Assembly: GCA_945874665.1 (NCBI GenBank)
Contig: CAMCHJ010000022.1
Coordinates: forward strand, 1 to 32,585
Length of the DNA stretch: 32,585 nucleotides
Source: Chitinophaga pinensis
GTDB taxonomy: Bacteria; Bacteroidota; Bacteroidia; UBA7662
Reading direction: 5' to 3'
Positions 2,787 through 6,222 of this stretch are shown one piece after another. The notes beneath the pieces are model-generated. The model searched no databases. It was not told the DNA's origin and was given only the letters and a program-made list of their open reading frames with translations. The position numbers and the translations under genes are program-made. The number at the start of each line of letters is the position of its first letter. Within the stretch, counting starts at the first letter, position 1.

Positions 2787-2794
2787 TATATTTG
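2787..2794 (+). promoter_or_regulatory. -7 box of the tandem ligase operon
   Basis: TATATTTG is an exact TAnnTTTG match ending only three bases before the ATG at 2798. With the usual 4-5 base offset, transcription would start at or next to that A, giving a leaderless mRNA. A dyad CAGGC-atttaa-GCCTG (2759-2774) lies where the -33 element would be, and no TTTG is visible there. Confidence 0.5.
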
Positions 2795-2797
2795 CTT

Positions 2798-5470
2798 ATG
2801 CGTGTAGGCATTTTTTTTGGAGGCAATTCTCGTGAAAGGGAAGTCTCATTTGCGGGAGGCCGCACAGTATACGACAACCTTAATAAGGCCTTGTTTACAG
2901 CTGTGCCTATTTTTGTAGATAGCTTTGGCAATTTTGTGATTTTAGATTGGCAATACCTTTACAAAGGCTCTATTCGCGATTTTTATCCTCCTGTAAGTGC
3001 ATTGATGCCTTCTCCCAATCACTTTCAAGTGTATGCTGAGCATTTAGGTGATTTAGATACCGAGGCGCAGTTAGACATGTTGAGGGAGTTAGGGCAGCCC
3101 ATAAAACCGGAGGCGCTAAACGCGCACATTGATTTTGCTTTTTTGGCGTTGCATGGAAAAAATGGGGAAGATGGCCGCTTGCAAGGCCTTTTAGAATGGC
3201 ATGGCATTCCTTATTCTGGTTCAGGTATTTGGGCGTCAGCTTTTGGTATGGACAAAGCGGCTCAAAAACAGTTGATGAGTGCCACCAATATGGAGGTGCC
3301 ACGCTTTAATGTCTTAGAAAGAAATGCTTGGCTGGCATTTAACTTGGTGGAACAAAAGGCTTATTTCTCTTTTTTGCAGCAGCAAATAGGATTGCCATTT
3401 GTGGTCAAGGCTGCTAACCAAGGCAGTTCCATTGGCATTTCAATTATATCACAAGATAATTTTGAGGACTTCCAACAAGCAGTCGACAAGTCCTTGTTTA
3501 GGAGGGTTATCAAAGCAGACTTCTGGTTGGCCTTAACCGAAGAAGAGCGCATTCGCTTTGTGAGGGAGTTTTCCGATATCCGATCGAACATAGGCTTACC
3601 TGCTCGCCTGCCTGCTGGCGAAGTCATTTACCATCCTGAAGCACTTTTGTTGGTATTGAACCGACAGTTAACCGAAAAACACCAATCGGTTACCCTGGAA
3701 GCACTCGATGCCGAGCATACGTTGTTATTCGAGGCTTTTATTGAAGGTGACGAATTTTCTTGCATCGTTATTCAGCAAGAAGATGGCAGTGCGGTTGCCT
3801 TACCGCCCACAGGCATTGTAAAGGGCAAAGAGCTTTTTGATTACCGTTCGAAATATTTGCCGGGTTTGTCACGTAAGGTAACGCCTATTGATTTGCCGGA
3901 GCCAGACATACAGCGCATCCGTACGGCAACCGAAAAGCTTTTTCACAGCTTCGGCTTTGACGTTTATGCCCGCATAGATGGTTTTTTTACCAAAAATGGA
4001 CAGGTGCTTCTGAATGATCCAAATACTACTTCGGGCATGATGCCATCTTCCTTTTTCTTCCATCAAGCGGCCGAAATAGGATTGAATCCAAGTCAGTTTT
4101 TGACCTATATCATTCGTACATCTCTACGTCAGCGAGCCAAAAAAGGCATGGAAATAGGCCATTTACTGGAACAACTCGATGTGGCACTCAAGCAAGAGCA
4201 ACAAGCAGCTGCTCACAAGCGAAAAGTGGCGGTTATTATGGGTGGTTACTCTAGCGAGCGGCATATTTCGGTAGAATCGGGCAGGAATATCTTCGAAAAA
4301 CTGAGCTCATCGGTCGATTATGACCCGATCAGTGTGTTTTTAACTGGAAACGCAGACCATTTTGAACTGTTTGCCATCCCCATCAACCTGCATTTGAAAG
4401 ACAATGCCGATGATATTGCCTCGAAAATTGCAGATTTTAAAGTACATCCGCTCATTGCAACTATTCAGCAGCAGTGTAAAGACATCACTGATTTGTTTGC
4501 ATTTAATGCACTTTTGAAGCCACAGCGTTTGACTTTTAAGGACTTGGCAAACAGGGTAGATGAAGTATTTATTGCCCTACATGGACGGCCGGGCGAAGAC
4601 GGTACCCTGCAAATCGAACTTCAAAAAGTAGGTCTCACTTACAATGGCTCTGAGCCTAGCTCAAGTGCCATCACCATCAATAAATTTGAAACCAATGAGT
4701 TATTAGCGCAGCAGGGTATGCTGGTTGCTCGCCACATGCTGGTGCGTGAAGGTGATTTTTCGAGTCACGCCGCTTTGGTAAATCACATCATTGAAAAATT
4801 CACTTTCCCAATCATAGCAAAACCTGTGGATGATGGTTGTTCATCGGCCGTTAAAAAGTTGAAAAACAGGGAAGAGCTTTTAGCCTATGCTGCGCTCATA
4901 TACCGCCAACACGAAGCATTGATGCCTGCACCAGCTGCAGTGTTGAAACTAAAACTCAAGGAAGAGTTTCCGCAAAAACCTGTTTTTTTGGTAGAGTCGT
5001 TTATTGAAAAAGGCGATGCGAAATTTTTCTTGGAGGTTACTGGTGGCTTACTTACGCATCGTAATGAGCGGGGCGAAGTGGTATACGAGATGTTTGAGCC
5101 TTCAGAAAGTCTGGCTGAAGGCGAGGTTTTATCGCTTGAAGAAAAGTTTTTGGCTGGCGAAGGTTTGAACATTACCCCAGCGCGGTACACAGATAACAAG
5201 GCTGATAGTGAGCGGGTAAGTGCTTTTGTGAAGAAAGAATTGGAGCGAGCTGCACGCATTTTAAACGTAGAAGGCTATTGTCGCATAGACGCGTTTGTTA
5301 AAATTTACGATTTGAATAGGATTGAAGTTTACATCATTGAAATCAATTCTCTTCCTGGCATGACGCCAGCTACTTGTATTTTCCATCAATGCGCCATAAA
5401 TGGGTACAAGCCTTATGAATTTATTGACAAGATATTGGCGTATGGTCGCACTCAAAAATCCTACACATGA
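2798..5470 (+). CDS. Tandem D-alanine-D-alanine ligase-like protein (two ATP-grasp modules)
   Basis: An 890-residue protein, more than twice the usual Ddl length (300-370), made of two successive Ddl-like ATP-grasp modules (about 1-445 and 475-890). Ddl joins two D-alanines for peptidoglycan. Module 1 starts RVGIFFGGNSREREVSF and has HGKNGEDG (119-126), YSGSGIWAS and GSSIG (209-213). In its metal-binding loop, however, the usual EINTLPG is NDPNTTSG, and about 70 extra residues lie near 230-310. Module 2 starts VAVIMGGYSSERHISVESG and has HGRPGEDG (595-602) and a canonical EINSLPGMTP loop (848 on), but its GSSVG-like loop reads GCSSAV. I use ATG 2798 because it starts at the canonical Ddl N-terminus; TTG 2792 overlaps the promoter box. 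The stop overlaps the PASTA gene (ATGA), which supports a cell-wall role. Confidence 0.88.
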   Translation: MRVGIFFGGNSREREVSFAGGRTVYDNLNKALFTAVPIFVDSFGNFVILDWQYLYKGSIRDFYPPVSALMPSPNHFQVYAEHLGDLDTEAQLDMLRELGQPIKPEALNAHIDFAFLALHGKNGEDGRLQGLLEWHGIPYSGSGIWASAFGMDKAAQKQLMSATNMEVPRFNVLERNAWLAFNLVEQKAYFSFLQQQIGLPFVVKAANQGSSIGISIISQDNFEDFQQAVDKSLFRRVIKADFWLALTEEERIRFVREFSDIRSNIGLPARLPAGEVIYHPEALLLVLNRQLTEKHQSVTLEALDAEHTLLFEAFIEGDEFSCIVIQQEDGSAVALPPTGIVKGKELFDYRSKYLPGLSRKVTPIDLPEPDIQRIRTATEKLFHSFGFDVYARIDGFFTKNGQVLLNDPNTTSGMMPSSFFFHQAAEIGLNPSQFLTYIIRTSLRQRAKKGMEIGHLLEQLDVALKQEQQAAAHKRKVAVIMGGYSSERHISVESGRNIFEKLSSSVDYDPISVFLTGNADHFELFAIPINLHLKDNADDIASKIADFKVHPLIATIQQQCKDITDLFAFNALLKPQRLTFKDLANRVDEVFIALHGRPGEDGTLQIELQKVGLTYNGSEPSSSAITINKFETNELLAQQGMLVARHMLVREGDFSSHAALVNHIIEKFTFPIIAKPVDDGCSSAVKKLKNREELLAYAALIYRQHEALMPAPAAVLKLKLKEEFPQKPVFLVESFIEKGDAKFFLEVTGGLLTHRNERGEVVYEMFEPSESLAEGEVLSLEEKFLAGEGLNITPARYTDNKADSERVSAFVKKELERAARILNVEGYCRIDAFVKIYDLNRIEVYIIEINSLPGMTPATCIFHQCAINGYKPYEFIDKILAYGRTQKSYT

Positions 5471-6222
5471 GCTTCATTAAGTTTATAAAGTCAAAGGCCT
5501 TCTTTGTTCAGTTGGGTATTATTTCAGGAATTACCCTGGTGTTGCTCATTGGTTTGGTGCAATACATGAAGTTTTACACTAAGCACGGACAAGAAATTGA
5601 GGTGCCGAATTTAACAGACTTACACATTGATCAATTGCAAGAGATACTTGAAGTTAATGACCTGAAATTCATGGTCATTGACTCTACTTATTTGCAGGGT
5701 AAACGCCCCATGCTGGTGTATGGTCAAGATCCCAAACCGGGGAGTAAGGTAAAGGAAGGTCGTACCATTTACATATCGATCACATCATCCAATACACCAA
5801 AGGTAAAACTCCCCAATCTTATTGATTTAAGTCTGCGTAAAGCCACCATCGATCTAAAAAACCTCGGACTGGGTGTGGGTGCCTTGGTTCTGCGGCCGGA
5901 TATTGCCAATAATGTGGTGCTCGAAATGACCATGGGCGGAAGCAAGGTATATCCCGGCAAGCAAGTGGCAAGGGGTAGCATCATCGATCTTGTAGTAGGT
6001 ATCTACAACGCAGACTCCTTAGTAAATGTGCCTAATTTAGTAGGATTGACAGTGGAAGAGGCCACCTTATATCTAAGCGAAACGGCACTTTATCTTGGTG
6101 CAGTCAATTACGGGGCAGCAATAACTGATAGTTCAAAAGCGTTAGTGGTTCGGCAATTCCCTGAGGTGAACGACGAAGAGCCCATCAATACCATGTCGTA
6201 TGTTGACATTTGGGTAGAATAA
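5467..6222 (+). CDS. Membrane-anchored protein with three PASTA domains
   Basis: A 251-residue protein with a short basic N-terminus, one membrane helix (about 15-37) and an outside part built of three PASTA-like repeats, which begin near EVPNLTDL (45), KLPNLIDL (118) and NVPNLVGL (191). PASTA domains bind peptidoglycan fragments or beta-lactams in Ser/Thr kinases and penicillin-binding proteins. No kinase or transpeptidase domain is present, so this is a stand-alone, probably periplasmic PASTA protein tethered to the inner membrane. It overlaps the tandem ligase gene by 4 bases and is followed after 9 bases by the T9SS-exported protein. The coupling to a ligase that makes peptidoglycan precursor fits a cell-wall sensing or scaffolding role, but this is inferred from context. 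Confidence 0.87.
   Translation: MSFIKFIKSKAFFVQLGIISGITLVLLIGLVQYMKFYTKHGQEIEVPNLTDLHIDQLQEILEVNDLKFMVIDSTYLQGKRPMLVYGQDPKPGSKVKEGRTIYISITSSNTPKVKLPNLIDLSLRKATIDLKNLGLGVGALVLRPDIANNVVLEMTMGGSKVYPGKQVARGSIIDLVVGIYNADSLVNVPNLVGLTVEEATLYLSETALYLGAVNYGAAITDSSKALVVRQFPEVNDEEPINTMSYVDIWVE

Follow-up and report, generated by a model that had tools for sequence, protein, structure and literature searches.

The window (the whole 32,585-nucleotide stretch of DNA that was analyzed) encodes the only D-Ala-D-Ala ligase (Ddl) found in its genome, and this enzyme is a single 890-aa chain with two diverged Ddl modules. The sequence evidence tilts towards a built-in heterodimer, in which module 1 carries a full Ddl site and module 2 would be a working second ligase site with a changed acceptor pocket. 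Across much of the Bacteroidota class to which the window belongs, such tandems have taken the place of the stand-alone Ddl, and they apparently form a widespread two-module Ddl family, hitherto undescribed; no description of a tandem Ddl was found in the searchable literature, and the database name of these proteins is simply D-alanine--D-alanine ligase. Ddl is an essential drug target (D-cycloserine) and sets the vancomycin-binding end of the wall precursor. With a putatively heterodimeric fused Ddl in ~45% of the class genomes sampled, in which one site has a Phe at the switch position and a fixed Cys, E. coli is no safe guide to the wall-precursor chemistry of these bacteria.

Gene, chain and fold

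The ligase ORF starts at ATG 2798 and ends at TGA 5468-5470, encoding 890 residues with zero internal stops. Pfam identified two copies each of PF01820 (Dala_Dala_lig_N) and PF07478 (Dala_Dala_lig_C) on the chain, one pair per half and above the gathering scores. The single ORF and the doubled Pfam pairs bear out the first-pass annotation, which had described two Ddl modules in one chain. The motifs that it quoted were all located at residue level in both modules, and the 4-base overlap that it reported with a PASTA gene is real, the ligase stop and the PASTA start sharing ATGA. A pseudogene, a frame error or an assembly chimera was ruled out by the identical architecture across hundreds of genomes. 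The features are as follows, with equivalent positions given in E. coli DdlB numbering:

2798..5470, + strand: two-module D-Ala-D-Ala ligase gene, 890 aa (ORF, Pfam); sole Ddl found in the genome
2798..4153, + strand: module 1, residues 1-452; predicted complete Ddl fold; full Ddl active site with E270 changed to Asp (D407)
4013..4039, + strand: module 1 metal loop NDPNTTSGM, residues 406-414; D407 = E270, N409 = N272
4154..4216, + strand: linker helix between the modules, residues 453-473 (secondary structure, AlphaFold2 model)
4217..5467, + strand: module 2, residues 474-890; predicted complete Ddl fold; ATP, metal and D-Ala-1 residues retained; S150C, Y216F, S281T
4835..4852, + strand: module 2 serine-loop counterpart GCSSAV, residues 680-685; C681 = S150
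5129..5170, + strand: module 2 omega-loop core, residues 778-791; K783-F784 = K215-Y216; model confidence low here
5467..6222, + strand: PASTA-repeat membrane protein with three PASTA (Pfam); 4-base overlap with the ligase; the tandem's usual 3' neighbor

An AlphaFold2 model of the full chain, made with an input alignment of 34 family members, has a mean pLDDT of 88 and a pTM of 0.88. By structure comparison, residues 1-452 of the model match the Thermus thermophilus Ddl 6u1d (Z 37.4), E. coli DdlB Y216F (Z 35.7; 1.6 Å across 303 residues) and the Leuconostoc mesenteroides LmDdl2, 1ehi (Z 35.1), and residues 470-884 match the A. baumannii Ddl 5d8d (Z 31.3). The chain is thus predicted to consist of two complete Ddl folds linked by a helix.

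A terminator-like hairpin of the intrinsic type lies at 2718-2737, in the gap that separates the ligase from the ferredoxin gene upstream, so that the ligase and PASTA genes probably begin their own transcript. Window positions 2787-2794 read TATATTTG, which fits TAnnTTTG, the Bacteroidota -7 promoter element, and the last base of this octamer lies 3 bases before ATG 2798. With TATATTTG so near the ATG, the ligase mRNA may have almost no leader, or the real start codon could be elsewhere.

Active sites of the two modules

The first-pass annotation had considered each module damaged at a different motif, and had proposed that the halves be aligned with DdlB. A residue-level alignment to E. coli DdlA and DdlB and to Bacteroidota single Ddls places E270D as the only change among the metal ligands of module 1, and S150C, Y216F and S281T in module 2.

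The module 1 motifs are HGKNGEDG (residues 119-126), GSSIG (209-213) and NDPNTTSG (406-413). The last of these had been taken for a lesion, but in the correct register D407 is the counterpart of E270, and N409 that of N272. The sole metal-ligand change, E270 to D, is conservative, and Asp occupies this position in all module 1 sequences examined, truncated and split forms included. All other residues mapped, E15, H63, K97, K144, S150, S151, E180, E187, K215, Y216, R255, D257, N272, G276 and S281, are retained, and the catalytic set is complete with E270D. The change from Glu to Asp at a metal ligand may lower the activity of module 1.

Module 2 has HGRPGEDG at residues 595-602, GCSSAV at 680-685 and EINSLPGMTP at 848-857. 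It retains E15, H63, K97, K144, S151, E180, E187, K215, R255, D257, E270, N272 and G276; the E187 counterpart, E746, is fixed in all aligned rows. The substitutions are Cys at S150, Phe at Y216 (F784; a change absent from the first-pass annotation) and Thr at S281. The triad E15-S150-Y216 therefore reads E-C-F and the full catalytic set is not present, whereas the residues for ATP, metal and D-Ala-1 are. GCSSAV reflects a genuine replacement of S150 by C that all full tandems share, but "damaged" does not describe a module whose active site is conserved throughout. Neither Cys at S150 nor Thr at S281 was seen in any of the single Ddls aligned. The module 2 changes gather on the acceptor (second-substrate) side. 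In lactobacilli, Phe or Tyr in the active site determines depsipeptide versus dipeptide activity (PMC8807649).

The residue states of both modules are fixed in 124 aligned tandem rows (one incomplete), save for K144R in five module 1 rows. Among 91 tandem rows less than 85% identical to one another (pairwise identity down to 41%), 17 of 18 catalytic columns in module 1 and 17 of 17 in module 2 are at least 99% conserved, versus ~20% of all columns (hypergeometric p ~1e-12). The main motifs are unchanged in deep-branching tandems, and dN/dS between the window and its closest relative is low (~0.03) in both modules, with dS near saturation. Residue states that are fixed or nearly so in 123 tandem proteins indicate that both sites are under selection. 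The motifs flagged by the first-pass annotation are therefore family hallmarks rather than lesions.

Distribution and origin

A stand-alone ddl elsewhere in the same genome, which the first-pass annotation suggested looking for, was not found; a search of the genome (96% complete) returned no other Ddl. The remaining PF07478 matches, frames of 459 and 949 aa, were rejected as a hidden second ddl and read as biotin-carboxylase- and CarB-type ATP-grasp proteins. Among 100 relatives, 58 have the tandem (a few broken by contig ends), 39 a single Ddl of ~320-360 aa and none both; the other 3, all incomplete genomes, have neither type. Best scores across 395 genomes drawn from the whole class were bimodal, with ~45% tandem by count, and a phylum-wide draw of Bacteroidota showed no tandem outside the window's class. 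At least 501 stretches encode relatives of the ligase, and named carriers among the matches listed include Hymenobacter, Pontibacter, Rufibacter, Adhaeribacter, Rhodocytophaga, Saprospiraceae and Chitinophagales. One record with a Bacteroidota-type tandem ligase (L110) is titled Candidatus Saccharibacteria; this contig is probably mislabelled or a contaminant.

The PASTA gene is directly downstream in 77 of 114 testable loci. In this class a PASTA gene also adjoins or neighbors several of the single ddl genes, and thus the tandem occupies the usual ddl slot.

Two candidates for an additional Ddl were rejected. The second match in a supposed two-tandem genome (G093) is a methyltransferase-ATP-grasp fusion, and a candidate second Ddl in G279 (L186) is a 310-aa protein without GGxSxE and HGxxGEDG. 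This ATP-grasp protein (L186:1015-1947), in a genome with a truncated ligase, has a DINTMPN loop, the usual Ddl N-terminal motifs being missing. A 660-aa frame at L065:3339-5321, in a genome that also carries the tandem, resembles a fusion of a methyltransferase and a Ddl-like ATP-grasp domain.

Modules 1 and 2 form two distinct clades in the tree. Their grouping together versus the single Ddls has a support of 85 (not starred), at a point where long branches meet. On these sequences the tandem may stem from an internal duplication or from two old paralogues that fused.

Truncated, split and module-2-only forms

Families f59, f104 and f106 have 550-634-aa proteins consisting of module 1 and the front part only of module 2, for example Bernardetia WP_338815673.1 (623 aa). 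These truncated forms nest inside the tandem module 1 sequences with a support of 99, and thus represent loss from a tandem. No second Ddl was found in the genomes of these families that were checked; one of them (G540, f106) has a further 314-aa Ddl-like ATP-grasp frame (L248:994-1938), in which the usual HGxxGEDG loop is missing by motif scan. The metal loops of module 1 read HDPNTLPGM, HDPNTIPGM or IDINTLPGM, Asp being kept even in the otherwise canonical-looking loop. In the module 2 remnant E15 and HGxxGEDG are gone, yet it is predicted to be well folded. The remnant was considered as a normal Ddl dimer interface and this was rejected: the BpDdl interface is formed by helices 3-5 and the last part of helix 8 (PMC6899670), and these helices were read as lying mostly past the HGxxGEDG loop, which is missing from f59. 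The truncated ligase gene of Bernardetia sp. Wsw4-3y2 (L298:2998-4869) sits on a 602-kb plasmid.

In family f121 the two modules are on separate genes in most members, with the reduced genomes of Amoebophilus and Cardinium among these, and are fused in one genus. Amoebophilus asiaticus 5a2 and Cardinium hertigii cEper1 are both capable of generating peptidoglycan (PMC3486910). In the split forms module 2 still precedes the PASTA gene and module 1 is relocated; the catalytic residues are kept save for H63Y in one module 1 and G276A in module 2. All five free-standing module 2 sequences inspected (L205, L209, L213, L228 and L229) have Ala at G276, in an NTLPALT-like loop, where the fused module 2 has Gly. 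In two of these (L228 and L229, from two 0.7-Mb Amoebophilus relatives) the serine loop reads GSSVGV or GSSYGV, Ser replacing the otherwise fixed Cys.

In one 0.7-Mb draft genome, 96% complete (G564), module 2 is the only module found; its residue at position 150 is Ser, and MurF and MraY are present. Module 1 may be absent from the draft assembly rather than from the organism. MurF and MraY are absent from another genome (G657) together with both modules, and the carriers have MurF and MraY. These fused, split, module-1-only and module-2-only forms are a natural set in which the role of each half is open to direct test.

Proposed working and alternatives

The first-pass annotation had proposed a built-in heterodimer with one catalytic and one regulatory module, or an enzyme with a changed substrate. 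The heterodimer is well supported by the two clades, fused in most genomes and on separate genes in Amoebophilus and Cardinium. In such a joined pair module 1 would synthesize D-Ala-D-Ala for MurF, with Asp as one Mg2+ ligand; it departs from a normal Ddl in that ligand alone, and in three families no other complete site is present, so that D-Ala-D-Ala is its most likely product. Module 2 would turn over as a second ATP-grasp ligase site, which either uses a different acceptor or sets the product balance. A division into one catalytic and one regulatory module fits worse than two catalytic sites of different specificity, since R255, D257, E270, N272, K215 and E15 are kept in module 2 of all full tandems, and decay among the remaining residues is confined to forms whose module 2 has its C-terminal half deleted.

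The main rival, which we consider unlikely, is that module 2 is a pseudo-ligase that binds ATP and D-Ala without turnover and acts as a scaffold or allosteric sensor for module 1. S150C and Y216F alter two of the three triad residues, and the catalytic half of module 2 is gone in f59, f104 and f106 while the predicted well-folded front stays, so that module 2 activity is dispensable in places. However, the six residues just named are not only fixed in full tandems but also kept in split module 2 genes, and decay of E15 and HGxxGEDG in the remnant is expected only if they are needed elsewhere for catalysis or ligand binding. Machinery for phosphoryl transfer and D-Ala-1 that is kept in full tandems, and almost entirely in split forms, and decays once the module is cut back argues for turnover over a purely structural role. 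Furthermore, module 2 is alone in G564 beside intact MurF and MraY. The same genome also speaks against the main reading, under which module 2 would have to suffice there.

If module 2 does turn over, its product could be D-Ala-D-Lac or another D-Ala-D-X, giving two kinds of wall-precursor ends. The retained E-S-Y triad of module 1 makes a changed substrate improbable there; it is module 2 that has a fixed Phe at the Y216 position, which in lactobacilli decides between depsipeptide and dipeptide (PMC8807649). This reading is nevertheless less probable than a pseudo-ligase: Cys at S150 and Thr at S281 are foreign to the single Ddls aligned, the scores with D-Ala-D-Lac families are far under their cut-offs, and no VanH- or VanX-like gene was seen beside the ligase among the window ORFs inspected. 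A literature search on the peptidoglycan ends of these species came back empty, and one on the vancomycin susceptibility of Hymenobacter was uninformative. Least probable of the readings weighed here is a reversal of roles, in which the main D-Ala-D-Ala ligase would be module 2, and the altered one module 1. The retained EINSLPG and the module-2-only genome, with Ser again at position 150, point that way, but three families rely on module 1 as their sole complete Ddl, both the E-S-Y triad and S281 are intact in module 1, and G564 is one 96%-complete draft from whose assembly module 1 may be lost. A bolder extension of the two-site heterodimer, about as unlikely in our judgment as the pseudo-ligase, is a bifunctional ligase with two specificities: many Bacteroidota would make two D-Ala-D-X ends, or C681 would take part in new chemistry, and Amoebophilus and Cardinium would run the two sites separately.

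Comparison with known ligases and fusions

By domains and predicted fold, each half is in the Ddl superfamily; with its two modules, the chain as a whole departs from the standard Ddl. The tandem resembles the stand-alone DdlA/DdlB (TIGR01205, PF01820 + PF07478) in the fold of each half, in nearly all catalytic residues, in its PASTA neighborhood in this class and in being the single Ddl source of its genome, but it has two diverged modules in one chain, with E270D in module 1 and S150C, Y216F and S281T in module 2. Against a TIGR01205 cut-off of 245.65, the whole protein scores 353.8 and the halves alone 217.6 and 140.1. Its 890 aa, in a conserved two-module architecture, are outside the size of a single Ddl module (~300-370 aa). 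These departures do not weaken the case for a Ddl-like working of module 1. No NCBIfam model for the tandem architecture was among the top matches.

LmDdl2 (1ehi) and the VanA-type ligases have the same fold. LmDdl2 presumably has Phe at the Y216 position, as module 2 does, and VanA has His there; unlike these ligases, module 1 has Tyr at this position, and module 2 departs through Cys at S150 and Thr at S281. The score of the whole protein with the D-Ala-D-Lac ligase model NF000206 is 170.8, below the cut-off of 550. The Chlamydia-type MurC-Ddl fusion (NF011171, PRK14573) likewise has a Ddl within a longer fused wall-synthesis protein, but its partner is MurC versus a second Ddl in the tandem; the chain scores 161.5 against a cut-off of 1015 and has zero Mur ligase domains. 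The large subunit of carbamoyl phosphate synthetase has two fused, diverged ATP-grasp sites, both acting, but belongs to another ATP-grasp family with a different reaction and substrates.
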